This document shows positions 4,205 through 39,829 of a DNA stretch of 64,000 nt, one piece after another. The stretch is from Lysobacter arseniciresistens ZS79 (GTDB taxonomy: Bacteria; Pseudomonadota; Gammaproteobacteria; Xanthomonadales; Xanthomonadaceae): positions 1 to 64,000 of the forward strand of contig NZ_AVPT01000001.1 of the NCBI RefSeq assembly GCF_000768335.1, given 5' to 3'. The notes beneath the pieces were generated by a model. That model saw only the letters and a program-made list of their open reading frames with translations. It made no database searches and was not told where the DNA came from. The first letter of the stretch is position 1; each line of letters starts with the position of its first letter. The translations under genes and the position numbers were made by a program.

Positions 4205-5242
4205 TCAGGCGGCGGCCTCCTCCTCCTCGTCTTCCGGCCGGCGCAGGGCCAGGCTCGACAACGCCGCGGTGGTGGCCACGCGCGAGCGCTCCTCCACCTT
4301 GTTCTCCCGATGGTGGATACCGGGGCAGCGGCTCAGCATGTAGGCGGCGTCGAAATTGAGCCGGTCGACCAGGAAGTCGACGAACGCGCGCACCTTCGGC
4401 GACTGCATCCGCCCGCCCGGGAACACCGCGTTGAACTCCATGTCCGGGCCGGTCCAGCCGGCCAGCACCCGCCGTACCAGGCCCTGCTCGACATAGGGTT
4501 TGACGGTCAGGTCGCTGGCCAGCATCACGCCCTCGCCGCACAGCAGCGCCCCCTTCAGCGCGGCCGGGTCGTTGGCGACCAGCACCGGATCCACCCGGTA
4601 CTCGATGCTCTGCCGGCCGTCGTTCAGCGGCCAGGCGTAGCCGCCGTTGCGACGGAACTTCTGGAACGTCAACGCCCGGTGGTGCTGCAGGTCGTCCGGG
4701 TGGGCCGGCTCCCCGTGCGCCTCCAGGTAGCAGGAGGACGCGTACACCTGGCTGCGGAACACCGCCAGCCGCCGCGCGATCAGGTTCGAATCCGGCAGGC
4801 TGCCGAGCCGCAGCGCCACGTCGATTTCGGTGTCGATCAGGTCCAGCGACTCGTTGGCGAGCACCATCTCCACCCGCACCTCGGGGTGCAGTTTGTGGAA
4901 CTCGCCCAGCAGCGGGGCAATCCAGGTGATGCCGACCGAGTACGGCGCGGTGAATCGCAGCCAGCCGCGCGGGCCGCCCTGCAGCTGGCCGACCGCGGTT
5001 TCGGCCTCGTCCAGTTCATGGGCGATGCGCTTGCAGTGCTCGAAGTAGATGTTGCCGGCCTCGGTCAGGCCGAGCTTGCGGGTGGTGCGGTGGAGCAACT
5101 GCGCGCCCAGCCGGGTTTCAAGGTCCTGCACCTTGCGGCTGACGGTGGTCTTGGGCAATCGAAGCGAGCGGGCTGCGGCGATGAAGCTGCCGTGCTCGAC
5201 CACCTTCACGAAGATCAGGGTGTCGTTGAGGTCGCGGGCCAT
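4205..5242 (-). CDS. LysR-family transcriptional regulator (paralogue 2)
   Basis: 345 residues. N-terminal HTH (FIAAARSLRLPKTTVSRKVQDLE) and LysR effector-binding domain. ATG at 5242 is supported by a strong AAGGAG about 7 nt upstream. The C-terminus runs into a charged tail (RRPEDEEEEAAA) not expected in the family. It is transcribed away from the RND operon that begins at 5813, the layout of mexT/mexEF-oprN and smeRv/smeVWX, so it is a good candidate regulator of that pump. The immediate sequence type is the CrgA-like LysR group rather than obviously MexT. Confidence 0.9.
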   Translation of the reverse strand: MARDLNDTLIFVKVVEHGSFIAAARSLRLPKTTVSRKVQDLETRLGAQLLHRTTRKLGLTEAGNIYFEHCKRIAHELDEAETAVGQLQGGPRGWLRFTAPYSVGITWIAPLLGEFHKLHPEVRVEMVLANESLDLIDTEIDVALRLGSLPDSNLIARRLAVFRSQVYASSCYLEAHGEPAHPDDLQHHRALTFQKFRRNGGYAWPLNDGRQSIEYRVDPVLVANDPAALKGALLCGEGVMLASDLTVKPYVEQGLVRRVLAGWTGPDMEFNAVFPGGRMQSPKVRAFVDFLVDRLNFDAAYMLSRCPGIHHRENKVEERSRVATTAALSSLALRRPEDEEEEAAA

Positions 5243-34791: not shown

Positions 34792-35217
34792 TCAGCGGGC
34801 GTGGACGTCGGTCGCCGGGAAGAAGTACGCGATCTCGATCGCGGCGTTCTCCAGGCTGTCCGAGCCGTGCACCGCGTTGGCGTCGATGCTGTCGGCGAAG
34901 TCGGCGCGGATGGTGCCCGCGGCGGCGTCCTTCGGGTTGGTGGCGCCCATCAGGTCGCGGTTCTTGAGCACCGCGCCCTCGCCTTCGAGCACCTGGATCA
35001 TCACCGGGCCGGAGATCATGAACTCGACCAGCGCGCCGAAGAACGGGCGCTCGCGGTGGACGGCGTAGAAGCCTTCGGCCTCGGCCTTGGACAGGTGCTT
35101 CATCTTCGAGGCGACGACCTTCAGGCCGGCCTTCTCGAAGCGGGTGTAGATCTCGCCGATGACGTTCTTGGCGACGGCATCGGGCTTGATGATGGACAGG
35201 GTGCGCTCCAGCGCCAT
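34792..35217 (-). CDS. ndk: Nucleoside diphosphate kinase
   Basis: 141 residues, standard length. Active-site His117 in NAVHGSDS, preceded by [14 protein letters not shown] and [16 protein letters not shown]. Balances NTP pools by ping-pong phosphotransfer. First gene of the long minus-strand run. An intrinsic terminator lies just upstream, facing it. Confidence 0.97.
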
Positions 35218-35388: not shown

Positions 35389-35417
35389 TTGACGGTTCAT
35401 CATGTCAGGCCTAGCAT
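35389..35417 (+). promoter_or_regulatory. Promoter of the PsrA-like regulator gene
   Basis: TTGACG (35389-35394), 17 bp, TAGCAT (35412-35417). The expected start is near 35424, inside the palindromic operator. Leader of about 34 nt to the ATG at 35458. Confidence 0.6.
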
Positions 35418-35433
35418 CAAACAAGCGTTTGAT
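35416..35433. promoter_or_regulatory. PsrA-type operator
   Basis: ATCAAAC-AAGC-GTTTGAT, a perfect palindrome with 7-bp arms. It contains CAAAC-N4-GTTTG, which fits the published PsrA motif (G/C)AAAC-N2-4-GTTT(G/C). It overlaps the -10 box and predicted start of the regulator gene, so repression of its own gene is likely. Confidence 0.7.
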
Positions 35434-35457
35434 TCAGCCAGGCCCGACCCCGCGACC

Positions 35458-36075
35458 ATGTCGACCACGACCTTCTCCACGAAAGACCGGATCCTCGGCG
35501 CGGCCGAGGAACTGTTCGCCCAGTTCGGTTTCACCGGCACCTCGTTGCGGCAGGTCACCAGCCGCGCCGACGTCAACATCGCCGCGGTCAACTACCACTT
35601 CGGCAGCAAGGAAAACCTCGTCAACGAGGTGTTCCGGCGGCGCATGGACGATATGAGCCGGCAGAGGCTGGACGCCCTGAAGGCCGCCGTGGCGGACCAT
35701 CCGGGCGAGCTGGAGCCGATCCTGGCGGCGTTCGTGGAGCCGGCGCTGGCGCTGGCCCAGGACCGCCACGGTGGCGGCGCGTTCGTGCGCGTGGTCGCGC
35801 GGGCGTACGCCGAGAAGAACGACAGCCTGCGCAAGTTCCTGTCCGACCACTACGGCCACGTGCTGCGCGATTTCGCCCGCGCGATCGCCGCGTGCGTGCC
35901 GGGGCTGAGCAAGGAGGAGCTGTACTGGCGGCTCGACTTCCTCGCCGGCGCGCTGACCTATGCGATGGCCGACTTCGGCCTGATCAAGCGCCCCGCAGGC
36001 ACCGCCGAAAAGGCCCACCGCGAACGCGCCGCGCGCGAGCTGATCCGCTTCGCGGCGGCTGGATTCAAGAGCTGA
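35458..36075 (+). CDS. TetR-family regulator, PsrA-like
   Basis: 205 residues. HTH region TSLRQVTSRADVNIAAVNYHFGSKENLV is nearly the PsrA sequence, with the C-terminal ligand domain (RFAR-like YGHVLRDFARAI; ELYWRLDFLAGAL) of that group. PsrA of Pseudomonas senses long-chain fatty acids and represses its own gene and beta-oxidation genes. Here the gene is 28 nt upstream of fadB and preceded by a matching operator, so it probably controls the fadBA operon in response to acyl chains. ATG 35458 chosen because the promoter and operator lie upstream of it. Confidence 0.9.
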   Translation: MSTTTFSTKDRILGAAEELFAQFGFTGTSLRQVTSRADVNIAAVNYHFGSKENLVNEVFRRRMDDMSRQRLDALKAAVADHPGELEPILAAFVEPALALAQDRHGGGAFVRVVARAYAEKNDSLRKFLSDHYGHVLRDFARAIAACVPGLSKEELYWRLDFLAGALTYAMADFGLIKRPAGTAEKAHRERAARELIRFAAAGFKS

Positions 36076-36103
36076 TATTCCGATTTTTCAGGGAGTTACG
36101 ATA

Positions 36104-38479
36104 ATGTCCAAGAATCTGCTTGTACGTCGTGCGGCTGTCCTGGGCGCCGGCGTCATGGGCGCGCAGATCGCCGCGCACCTGACCAACGCAGGGGTCGACA
36201 CCGTGCTGTTCGACCTGCCGGCGAAGGACGGCGACCCGAACGGCATCGTCAACAAGGCGATTGCCGGGCTGGCCAAGCTGAGCCCCGCCCCGCTGGCCGA
36301 CAAGGCGCTGGCGTCGCGCATCACCGCCGCCAACTACGAGACCGGACTGGCCCTGCTGGAAAGCTGCGACCTCGTCATCGAGGCGATCGCCGAGCGCATG
36401 GACTGGAAGCAGGACCTGTACCGGAAGATCGCCCCGCACGTGCCGGCACACGCGGTGCTGGCCAGCAACACCTCGGGCCTGGGCATCAACAAGCTGGCCG
36501 AGGTGCTGCCGGAGGAAATGCGGCACCGCTTCTGCGGCGTGCACTTCTTCAACCCGCCGCGCTACATGCACCTGGCCGAGCTGATCCCGGCGCGCGGCAC
36601 CGATGCCGACGTGCTGGCCGGCCTGGAAACCTTCCTGACCACCACCCTCGGCAAGGGCGTGGTCTACGCCCGCGACACCCCGAACTTCATCGGCAACCGC
36701 ATCGGCGTGTTCTCGATGCTGGCGGCGATGCACCACACCGAGCAGTTCAAGCTCGGCTTCGACACCGTCGACGCGCTGACCGGCCCGGCGATCAGCCGGC
36801 CGAAGTCGGCCACCTACCGCACCGCCGACGTGGTCGGGCTCGACACCATGGTCCATGTCATCAAGACGATGGCCGACACCCTGCCCGACGACCCGTGGCA
36901 CAAGTATTTCAAGGCGCCGAAGTGGCTGGCGGGGCTGGTCGAGAAGGGTGCGCTGGGGGCCAAGACCGGCGCCGGCGTGTACACCCGCAAGGGCAAGGAC
37001 ATCCTCGTGCTGGACCTGCAGGCGCAGGATTACCGGCCGTCGAACCCGGAGCTCGACCCCGGGGTTGCCGCGCTGCTGAAGGAGCGCGACCCGGCGAAGA
37101 AATTCGCCGCCCTGCGCGCGTCCGACCACCCGCAGGCCAAGTTCCTGTGGGCCTGCTTCCGCGACACCTTCCACTACAGCGCCTACCACCTCAAGGACAT
37201 CGCCGAGACCGCGCGCGACGTCGACTTCGCGATGCGCTGGGGCTACGGCTGGTCGGTCGGTCCGTTCGAGAGCTGGCAGGCGGCGGGCTGGAAGCAGGTC
37301 GCCGAGTGGATCGCCGAGGACATCGTCGCCGGCGATGCGATGAGCAACGCCGAGTTGCCGGACTGGGTGTTCGACGGCCGCGAGGGCGTGCACGCCAGCG
37401 CCGGCAGCTACAGCCCGGCGCGCGACGCGATGGTGCCGCGCTCGTCCAACCCGGTCTACGCGCGCCAGCGCTTCCCGGACGCGCTGCTGGGGGAGAAGGC
37501 CTCGCAGGGTCGCACCGTGTTCGAGAACGACGGCATCCGGATGTGGGCCGACGAAGGCGATGAAATCGCGGTGGTGAGCTTCAAGACCAAGATGCACACG
37601 GTCAACGACCACGTGCTCGACGGCCTGCAGGAAGCGGTGCGGATCGCCGAGCGCGACTTCCGCGGGCTGGTGATCTGGCAGCCGAAGGAGCCGTTCTCGG
37701 CCGGTGCCGACCTGGCCGGCGCGCTGGGGCTGCTGCAGGCCGGCGACGTCAAGGGCTTCGAGGCGATGGTCGAGAACTTCCAGCGCACCAGCATGGCGAT
37801 CAAGTACTCGCTGGTGCCGGTGGTCGCGGCGGTGCGCGGCCTGGCGCTGGGCGGCGGTTGCGAGTTCCAGATGCACTCGGCACGCACGGTGCTGGGGCTG
37901 GAGAGCTACATCGGCCTGGTCGAGGCCGGCGTCGGCCTGCTGCCGGCCGGTGGCGGGCTGAAGGAACTGGCCGTGCGCGCCTCGGAGGCAGCCGGTCGCG
38001 ACGGCGATGTGTTCGCGGGGCTCAAGACCGTGTTCGAGACCGTGGCGATGGCCAAGGTCGCGACCTCGGCAGTGGAGGCGAAGAACCTGCAGCTCGCCCG
38101 TCCGGACGACGTGGTCGTGTTCAACGCCTTCGAACTGTTGCACGTGGCGAAGGCACAGGCACTGGCGCTGGCTGAATCCGGCTACCGCCCGCCCCTGCCC
38201 GCCCGCGCGATCCGCGTGGCCGGCGACGTCGGCATCGCGACTTTCAAGATGATGCTGGTGAACATGCTCGAGGGCCGTTTCATCTCGGAGCACGACTACG
38301 AGATCGCCACCCGGATAGCGACGGTGCTGTGCGGCGGCGAGGTCGACCGGCACTCGGTGGTCGACGAGGAGTGGCTGCTGCGGCTGGAGCGCGAGCACTT
38401 CGTGGCGCTGGCGCAGATGCCGAAGACGCAGGAGCGCATCGCCCACATGCTCAAGACCGGCAAGCCGCTGCGCAATTAG
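36104..38479 (+). CDS. fadB: 3-hydroxyacyl-CoA dehydrogenase / enoyl-CoA hydratase
   Basis: 791 residues. N-terminal NAD-binding domain (AAVLGAGVMGAQIAAHL; SNTSGLGI; GVHFFNPPRYMHL) to about residue 300. A middle helical dehydrogenase region follows, then a C-terminal crotonase domain (about residues 475-700: KEPFSAGADL, ALGGGCEFQMHS, GLVEAGVGLLPAGGG with the two Glu). The order dehydrogenase-then-hydratase is that of FadN-type proteins and the reverse of E. coli FadB. Performs the hydration and oxidation steps of beta-oxidation. Confidence 0.94.
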   Translation: MSKNLLVRRAAVLGAGVMGAQIAAHLTNAGVDTVLFDLPAKDGDPNGIVNKAIAGLAKLSPAPLADKALASRITAANYETGLALLESCDLVIEAIAERMDWKQDLYRKIAPHVPAHAVLASNTSGLGINKLAEVLPEEMRHRFCGVHFFNPPRYMHLAELIPARGTDADVLAGLETFLTTTLGKGVVYARDTPNFIGNRIGVFSMLAAMHHTEQFKLGFDTVDALTGPAISRPKSATYRTADVVGLDTMVHVIKTMADTLPDDPWHKYFKAPKWLAGLVEKGALGAKTGAGVYTRKGKDILVLDLQAQDYRPSNPELDPGVAALLKERDPAKKFAALRASDHPQAKFLWACFRDTFHYSAYHLKDIAETARDVDFAMRWGYGWSVGPFESWQAAGWKQVAEWIAEDIVAGDAMSNAELPDWVFDGREGVHASAGSYSPARDAMVPRSSNPVYARQRFPDALLGEKASQGRTVFENDGIRMWADEGDEIAVVSFKTKMHTVNDHVLDGLQEAVRIAERDFRGLVIWQPKEPFSAGADLAGALGLLQAGDVKGFEAMVENFQRTSMAIKYSLVPVVAAVRGLALGGGCEFQMHSARTVLGLESYIGLVEAGVGLLPAGGGLKELAVRASEAAGRDGDVFAGLKTVFETVAMAKVATSAVEAKNLQLARPDDVVVFNAFELLHVAKAQALALAESGYRPPLPARAIRVAGDVGIATFKMMLVNMLEGRFISEHDYEIATRIATVLCGGEVDRHSVVDEEWLLRLEREHFVALAQMPKTQERIAHMLKTGKPLRN

Positions 38480-38516
38480 CCATGAAGAAGATCGGGCATC
38501 CTGCCGCGACTTCTTC

Positions 38517-38550
38517 GCCTCTGGCGAAAAACGCGGTTTTCGCCAGAGGC
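38517..38550 (+). other. Strong hairpin 1 in fadB-fadA spacer
   Basis: Perfect 14-bp inverted repeat GCCTCTGGCGAAAA / TTTTCGCCAGAGGC around a 6-nt loop, beginning 38 nt after the fadB stop. No T-run follows, so it is not a clear terminator. It may protect the 3' end of fadB mRNA or mark RNA processing. Confidence 0.75.
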
Positions 38551-38575
38551 CGCGACGTCGCGCCGCGACGCCGCG

Positions 38576-38595
38576 CCGGCACATCCATGTGCCGG
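38576..38595 (+). other. Hairpin 2 / palindrome before fadA
   Basis: CCGGCACAT-CC-ATGTGCCGG, perfect 9-bp arms with a 2-nt centre, ending 28 nt before the fadA ATG. As DNA it could be a protein site; as RNA it makes a tight hairpin close to the ribosome-binding region. Confidence 0.65.
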
Positions 38596-38623
38596 TAAAC
38601 ACCACCGAATCCGGAGTCATCCC

Positions 38624-39829
38624 ATGACCAAACAGATCCAGGACGCCTACATCGTCGCCGCCACCCGTACCCCGGTGGCCAAGGCGCGCGGCGCATTCCG
38701 CAACACCCGTCCGGACGACATGCTCGCCCACGTGCTCCGTGCCGCGGTCGCGCAGGCGCCGGGCATCGACGTCAACCGCATCGAGGACGCCATCATCGGC
38801 TGCGCGATGCCGGAGGCCGAGCAGGGCATGAACGTGGCGCGCATCGGCGTGCTGCTGGCGGGCCTGCCCAACACCATCGCCGCCCAGACCATCAACCGCT
38901 TCTGCTCGTCGGGCCTGCAGGCGGTCGCGCTGGCGGCCGACCAGATCCGCCTTGGCCAGGCCGACCTGGTGCTGGCCGGCGGCACCGAGTCGATGACGAT
39001 GGTGCCGATGATGGGCAACAAGGTCGCGCTCTCGCCGAGCGTGTTCGAGAAGGACGAGAACGTCGCGATCGCCTACGGCATGGGCATCACCGCCGAAAAG
39101 GTCGCCGAGGAATGGAAGGTCAGCCGCGAGGACCAGGACGCGTTCGCGCTGGAGTCGCACCTGAAGGCGATCCGGGCGATCGAGGCCGGCGAGTTCCGCG
39201 ACGAGATCACACCGCTTGAAGTCGTATCGCACATCCCCGACCTCGCCGGCAACGCGATCCGGTTGAAGAAGACGCTGGTCGACACCGACGAAGGCCCGCG
39301 CGCGGGCTCGACCATCGAGGCGCTGGCGAAGCTGCGTCCGGTGTTCCGCAACGGCCAGTTCGGCGGTACGGTGACGGCCGGCAACAGTTCGCAGATGTCC
39401 GATGGCGCCGGCGCCGTGCTGGTGGCGTCCGAGCAGGCGATCAAGGACTACGGACTGACCCCGCTGGCGCGCTTCGTCAGCTTCTCGGTCGCCGGCGTGC
39501 GGCCGGAGGTAATGGGCATCGGCCCGATCGCGGCGATCCCGAAGGCGCTGAAGCAGGCCGGGCTGACGAAGGACCAGCTGGACTGGATCGAGCTCAACGA
39601 GGCGTTCGCCGCACAGGCGCTGGCGGTGATCCGCGACAGCGAACTGGATCCGTCGAAGGTCAACCCGCTCGGTGGCGCGATCGCATTGGGCCATCCGCTT
39701 GGCGCGACCGGCGCGGTGCGCACCGCGACCATCGTCCATGGCCTGCGCCGGCGCCAGCAGAAGTACGGCCTGGTGACGATGTGCATCGGTACCGGCATGG
39801 GTGCGGCGGGCGTATTCGAAGCGCTGTAA
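38624..39829 (+). CDS. fadA: Acetyl-CoA C-acyltransferase (3-ketoacyl-CoA thiolase)
   Basis: 401 residues. Nucleophile Cys94 in INRFCSSGL, then GGTESMTMVP, NEAFAAQALAV, GHPLGATGAVRT and the second Cys in CIGTGMGAAGVF, all standard thiolase motifs. Cleaves 3-ketoacyl-CoA in beta-oxidation and partners with the fadB product. 144 nt separate it from fadB, with two hairpins between. Confidence 0.95.
   Translation: MTKQIQDAYIVAATRTPVAKARGAFRNTRPDDMLAHVLRAAVAQAPGIDVNRIEDAIIGCAMPEAEQGMNVARIGVLLAGLPNTIAAQTINRFCSSGLQAVALAADQIRLGQADLVLAGGTESMTMVPMMGNKVALSPSVFEKDENVAIAYGMGITAEKVAEEWKVSREDQDAFALESHLKAIRAIEAGEFRDEITPLEVVSHIPDLAGNAIRLKKTLVDTDEGPRAGSTIEALAKLRPVFRNGQFGGTVTAGNSSQMSDGAGAVLVASEQAIKDYGLTPLARFVSFSVAGVRPEVMGIGPIAAIPKALKQAGLTKDQLDWIELNEAFAAQALAVIRDSELDPSKVNPLGGAIALGHPLGATGAVRTATIVHGLRRRQQKYGLVTMCIGTGMGAAGVFEAL

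Follow-up and report, generated by a model that had tools for sequence, protein, structure and literature searches.

A TetR-family regulator gene stands directly ahead of fadB- and fadA-type genes and has a palindrome touching the -10 of its own promoter, and the question raised by this locus is what the regulator controls and what releases it. The window, meaning the whole stretch of DNA analyzed, comprises the first 64,000 nt of a contig from a genome of 3,085,112 bases (3.09 Mb), and the feature region within it spans positions 35389-36103. The regulator is very probably an autorepressor of the PsrA / Smlt2053 kind that controls a fadBA operon and leaves its DNA site when long-chain fatty acids are present.

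A consensus scan placed a sigma-70-like promoter at 35389-35417 of the plus strand, with the -35 hexamer TTGACG at 35389-35394, the -10 hexamer TAGCAT at 35412-35417 and a 17 nt spacer between them. The regulator gene (35458-36075, plus strand, 205 amino acids) begins with the ATG at 35458, and position 35389 is both the start of the -35 hexamer and an in-frame TTG upstream of the gene. The stop codon is followed after 28 nt, on the same strand, by a gene for a fadB-type multifunctional enzyme (36104-38479, 791 amino acids), and a gap of 144 nt (38480-38623) then leads to the plus-strand gene of a fadA-type thiolase (acetyl-CoA C-acyltransferase; 38624-39829, 401 amino acids). The thiolase contains Thiolase_N and Thiolase_C and scored above the NF006553 cut-off (729.1 against 567 bits). 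The fadB-type enzyme matched NF052272 over its full length at a score below the cut-off, and its Pfam domains place 3-hydroxyacyl-CoA dehydrogenase first and enoyl-CoA hydratase last. In E. coli FadB the hydratase domain precedes the dehydrogenase domains, and the window enzyme has this order reversed. The first-pass annotation had named the next genes fadB and fadA; both are present on the same strand, but the fadB is of the dehydrogenase-first form. A hydratase-first multifunctional beta-oxidation enzyme is also encoded in the genome (G000 contig C19:84578-87853, L087), and the genome pattern searches found no PsrA-type palindrome on contig C19. On the other side of the regulator, a divergent minus-strand neighbor (34792-35217) reads from its translation as a nucleoside diphosphate kinase, and a minus-strand hairpin resembling a terminator (35308-35285) lies between this gene and the TetR promoter.

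The regulator contains the Pfam domains TetR_N and TetR_C_30, and its best match in the PDB was 2fbq_A (E 9.3e-32, residues 7-204), entered there as a probable transcriptional regulator, which we take to be PsrA of P. aeruginosa. Identical residues numbered 74 of 197 aligned, with 32 of 50 in the DNA-binding part and 42 of 147 in the C-terminal part, and the regulator thus has the full-length homology and the conserved DNA-binding domain of a Pseudomonas PsrA, provided that 2fbq_A is PsrA as assumed. Relative to 2fbq_A, conservation is much stronger in the DNA-binding part, where a PsrA-type helix-turn-helix had been noticed at the outset, than in the remainder of the protein. The NCBIfam PsrA model NF053516 gave a near full-length match of 157.7 bits, under its cut-off of 300 bits, and its short name suggests that the model was built on Vibrio proteins. 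Identity to the homolog of Stenotrophomonas maltophilia IAM 12423 (L059) is 81% over 200 amino acids, a figure that refers to this strain and not to K279a. Elsewhere in the genome there is no close copy of the regulator; the runner-up matches at 33% over 55 residues.

The candidate operator is the perfect palindrome ATCAAACAAGCGTTTGAT at 35416-35433 (assigned to neither strand), which is of the PsrA type and consists of the half-sites ATCAAAC and GTTTGAT on either side of AAGC. It overlaps the -10 hexamer of the regulator's own promoter by 2 bases, as the first-pass annotation had stated, and a start point about 7 bases past the -10 would fall within it. The genome scan for the same palindrome that had been proposed as a check was run, and the exact 18-mer occurs as a single copy in the whole genome, this being the operator itself. 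Within the window promoter, no second PsrA-type site was found at three or fewer mismatches except for overlapping registers and GC-rich three-mismatch matches. Searched with one mismatch or none, the core CAAACN4GTTTG gave one match in the window, itself exact, against a shuffle mean of 0.56 and at least one match in 48 of 100 shuffles; this looser test alone is weak evidence against chance, and a single window match proves little.

The palindrome can be placed beyond chance because it is conserved upstream in relatives when these are compared with control windows. Relatives were taken as the best 80 of at least 562 confirmed, all 80 being named records. Among them fadB is the next gene, in the same direction, in all 80, and fadA lies behind fadB in 75, the remaining 5 loci ending too early. 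The best upstream match to TCAAACN4GTTTGA in these best 80 of at least 562 had zero, one or two mismatches in 52, 21 and 7 cases, respectively, whereas the same counts in 4628 equal-size control windows from the same loci were 0, 0 and 17. With two mismatches allowed, every one of the 80 upstream regions therefore has the operator, compared with 17 of the 4628 control windows; with one allowed, the figures are 73 of 80 and none of 4628. Two of the seven two-mismatch cases (L073 and L081) have their best match elsewhere upstream, off the usual operator position, and in five Arenimonas-type loci (L069, L071, L073, L078 and L081) mainly the right half-site is retained at the expected place. The pattern SAAACN2-4GTTTS was found no more than 150 nt upstream in 67 of the 80 relatives, whereas 729,583 bases from other parts of these loci contained 2 occurrences. 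A chance origin of this inverted repeat could be argued from the core with one mismatch, which is expected 0.56 times per window, but conservation at the same place, with its 73 relatives against no control window, makes this hardly credible. Gene order, promoter match, operator and their conservation are observed directly.

Across the family and the order, the same arrangement recurs. The exact 16-mer TCAAACN4GTTTGA was counted genome-wide, at any position and not specifically at promoters, in 119 family genomes drawn evenly across the family, and was present in 79 of them (71 with one copy and 8 with two) and absent from 40, against 2 of 119 for the reversed control; the 40 genomes without it are partly accounted for by one-mismatch forms. 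Of 150 genomes from the order, 111 have a match to the regulator at E 1e-30 or better. Twenty more distant relatives at order level (43-67% identity) all carry an operator with at most one mismatch within 200 nt upstream, in a search that allowed spacers of 2-4, returned 4 as the best spacer in all 20 and had no control of its own, and a fadB relative lies downstream in all 20. In 13 of these, fadB follows directly after the TetR gene with fadA behind it, and in the other 7 (L215-L221) a distance of 2.3-2.8 kb separates the TetR gene from the start of fadB. The four intervening proteins scanned, from L216, L217, L219 and L220, match FadE acyl-CoA dehydrogenase models, with scores that exceed the cut-off for two of them and fall short of it for the other two. 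The control unit is accordingly widespread at order level with a variable gene content. Conservation of a PsrA-type operator before TetR-fadBA is thereby confirmed, with controls, in the family and extends to the order-level relatives examined, and the conserved operator makes fatty-acid catabolic control predictable in many unstudied genomes.

In the proposed mechanism, the regulator would bind the palindrome at 35416-35433, presumably as a dimer, and the bound palindrome, which touches the -10, should cover the start point and so block RNA polymerase. The regulator, fadB and fadA would be transcribed as an operon from this one promoter. Once the C-terminal domain had bound long-chain fatty acids, the repressor would leave the DNA, upon which the beta-oxidation enzymes and more repressor would be made, and once the acids had been consumed the repressor would close the operon again. 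For the window organism we infer binding, ligand, repression and the single transcript by analogy with the ortholog Smlt2053 of S. maltophilia. According to the available part of the published account, deletion of Smlt2053 raises Smlt2052 and Smlt2051, and Smlt2053 shifts its own promoter, a shift that is undone by fatty acids longer than 12 carbons, by iso-C15:0 and by DSF (PMC10304680). These ortholog data for Smlt2053-2051 argue, by analogy, for the predicted autorepression with readthrough onto the beta-oxidation genes. The first-pass annotation had also named long-chain acyl ligands as the relieving signal; for the free acids this probably holds, in that the ortholog is released by DSF and by free fatty acids with chains longer than 12 carbons, and acyl-CoA lies outside the set of ligands, all free fatty acids, that the available part of that account describes (PMC10304680). 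In Pseudomonas, oleic acid is described as releasing PsrA from fadBA5 (in the part available of PMC13104628).

Were the regulator to repress only itself, fadB and fadA would need a promoter of their own, and the structured 144-nt gap that precedes fadA might be read in this way. The scans, however, found no plus-strand terminator or promoter match in the 28-nt gap between the TetR gene and fadB and no plus-strand promoter match in 38400-38700. The shortness of the TetR-fadB gap and the gene order retained in 80 of 80 relatives (best 80 of at least 562) also stand against separate control, as does the rise of both downstream genes upon deletion of the regulator in S. maltophilia (PMC10304680, available part), and self-repression alone is considered very unlikely.

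The spacer between fadB and fadA (38480-38623) is nevertheless a feature in its own right, being strongly structured with a 14-bp perfect stem (z -7.4). Two identities were considered for its hairpins and set aside: a mobile repeat, for which scoring of 40 of 87 first-look candidates across the genome yielded just one further hit, this being the spacer itself read on the opposite strand, and a terminator, for which the gap contained no terminator match. The sequence of the central stem is absent from the other loci compared. Of 73 usable fadB-fadA gaps in relatives, 7 hold perfect stems of 10 bp or more, with differing sequences, and among gaps of at least 100 nt such stems are present in 5 of 34 against 0 of 34 after shuffling, so hairpins may be favored in this gap. 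With the 144-nt gap and its predicted hairpins, the expression level of fadA may differ from that of fadB.

Set beside operon-wide control by this regulator is the reading of a global PsrA as in Pseudomonas, acting at many promoters beyond its own operon. The PsrA-like DNA-binding domain and the operator are compatible with it, and a genome search for the 18-mer with up to three mismatches gave 14 places, compared with 6 when the pattern was reversed as a control, which leaves room for a few weak extra targets. The 13 places other than the operator, however, have 2-3 mismatches, the best of them 2, and SAAACN4GTTTS occurs at 3 places in the genome, the same number as for its reversed control. 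The two of these other than the operator adjoin ssb/rmlB (L083) and gcvH with a histone-like gene (L084), with no fatty-acid genes among them by the names read from the translations. The family counts given above, in which a single copy of the 16-mer predominates (71 of 119 genomes), point the same way, and seven genes were listed as changed in RNA-seq of the Smlt2053 mutant, the two belonging to the operon being confirmed while the other five could not be validated (PMC10304680, available part). Pattern searches of the whole genome, judged on the exact 18-mer and the SAAACN4GTTTS places, yielded no convincing second target, and a global regulon is held to be improbable. With one strong genome site and the RNA-seq of the ortholog, control by the regulator looks local, and there may be further weak targets. 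Teper et al. describe, in the available part of their report, fadB and fadA as unaffected by TfmR, another regulator, and beta-oxidation control in the family is not a single-regulator matter because TfmR leaves these two genes unaffected.

The promoter itself exists in two forms among the best 80 of at least 562 relatives. TTGAC stands at the place equivalent to the window's -35 in 36 of the 80, and a further 40, which lack TTGAC, carry the palindrome TGCTGCANNGCARMATG where the -35 would stand. Presence of TGCTGCANNGCARMATG was defined as at most three mismatches to TGCTGCANNGCANNATG, and the 36 relatives with TTGAC have a best match to the latter with at least four (exactly four in two of them). 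The four loci with neither element are L030, L033, L073 and L081, the last two of which were measured from the wrong place. The second palindrome begins about 40-45 nt before the operator (for example, L059:4404-4423, with the operator at 4450), and the window has none ahead of its TetR gene. By record titles, its 40 carriers are Xanthomonas, Stenotrophomonas and Pseudoxanthomonas together with one bin labelled Massilia (L040). The type of promoter changes at least three times on the protein tree (40 against 40 loci), and the split between box and -35 is not an independent statistic (a Fisher p of about 1e-15 was set aside) because the trait follows the tree and is largely inherited.

The second palindrome resembles a PhaR/PhbF box, TG[N]TGC[N]3GCAA being the consensus inside the DNase I footprint of PhbF, a PhaR relative, in Herbaspirillum (PMC3206438, available part). 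Upstream, the strict form TGNTGCN3GCAR is present in 23 of 80 loci, the background being 0.004 per window, and the window itself does not have it there. One PhaR gene each is present in the 35 genomes tested of the 80 (18 with the element and 17 without), and also in the window's genome, and PhaR presence does not separate the promoter types because both carry one such gene. The PhaR box TGCTGCANTGCARNATG with up to one mismatch has 0 matches in the window's own genome. In four of the 40 carrier genomes, the box occurs at 7 places, 4 of which are the TetR-fadBA promoter. The first of the extra places lies 25 nt before a frame that, read from its translation, begins like a PHB depolymerase; the C-terminal piece of this frame matches PHB_depo_C and the other scanned piece has no family. 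The depolymerase-like gene (L140:1543-2790, Pseudoxanthomonas sp. NC8) is spread over several frames, perhaps through a sequencing fault. The second place is close to where a TonB-receptor-like gene begins (L141, read from translation) and the third is in L142; one of the three extra places thus speaks for PhaR and the other two give no support. PhaR is a regulator that senses polyhydroxybutyrate, and we tentatively suggest, at somewhat less than even confidence, that in the Xanthomonas/Stenotrophomonas/Pseudoxanthomonas branch TGCTGCANNGCARMATG replaces the -35, binds PhaR and couples stored polymer with fatty-acid breakdown, the window's branch lacking this element. If true, one promoter would be the meeting point of polyhydroxybutyrate and fatty acids as carbon stores. 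A search of the literature on PhaR, Stenotrophomonas, beta-oxidation and polyhydroxybutyrate returned, by title, nothing on the TetR-fadBA promoter, which is a weak negative.

The operon Smlt2053-Smlt2052-Smlt2051 of S. maltophilia K279a is the closest known system, with the order TetR, 3-hydroxyacyl-CoA dehydrogenase and acetyl-CoA C-acyltransferase as in the window and with the same type of operator at the Smlt2053 promoter (PMC10304680, available part). L059 from strain IAM 12423 likewise matches the window in operator and gene order. Two differences concern the promoter: that of Smlt2053 has a second inverted repeat (PMC10304680, available part), whereas the window is without a second PsrA-type site, and the S. 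maltophilia records L043 and L059 lack the TTGAC -35 that the window has. XAC2014-2012 of Xanthomonas citri, compared by description, is alike in operon and type of operator as far as the available parts of PMC6637906 and PMC10304680 go, and the window shares with this Smlt2053/XAC2014 subgroup the TetR-fadB-fadA order, G/CAAACN2-4GTTTG/C at its own promoter and a high whole-protein identity. PsrA of P. aeruginosa and P. putida is also of the TetR type, with an operator C/GAAACN2-4GTTTG/C at its own promoter (PMC13104628, available part), but psrA in Pseudomonas is a single gene (PMC10304680, available part) with many targets, whereas the window regulator heads a fadBA operon and has one strong site. 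The mechanism has already been published for the ortholog, and the window system is very probably a further example of it, well conserved and ordinary.
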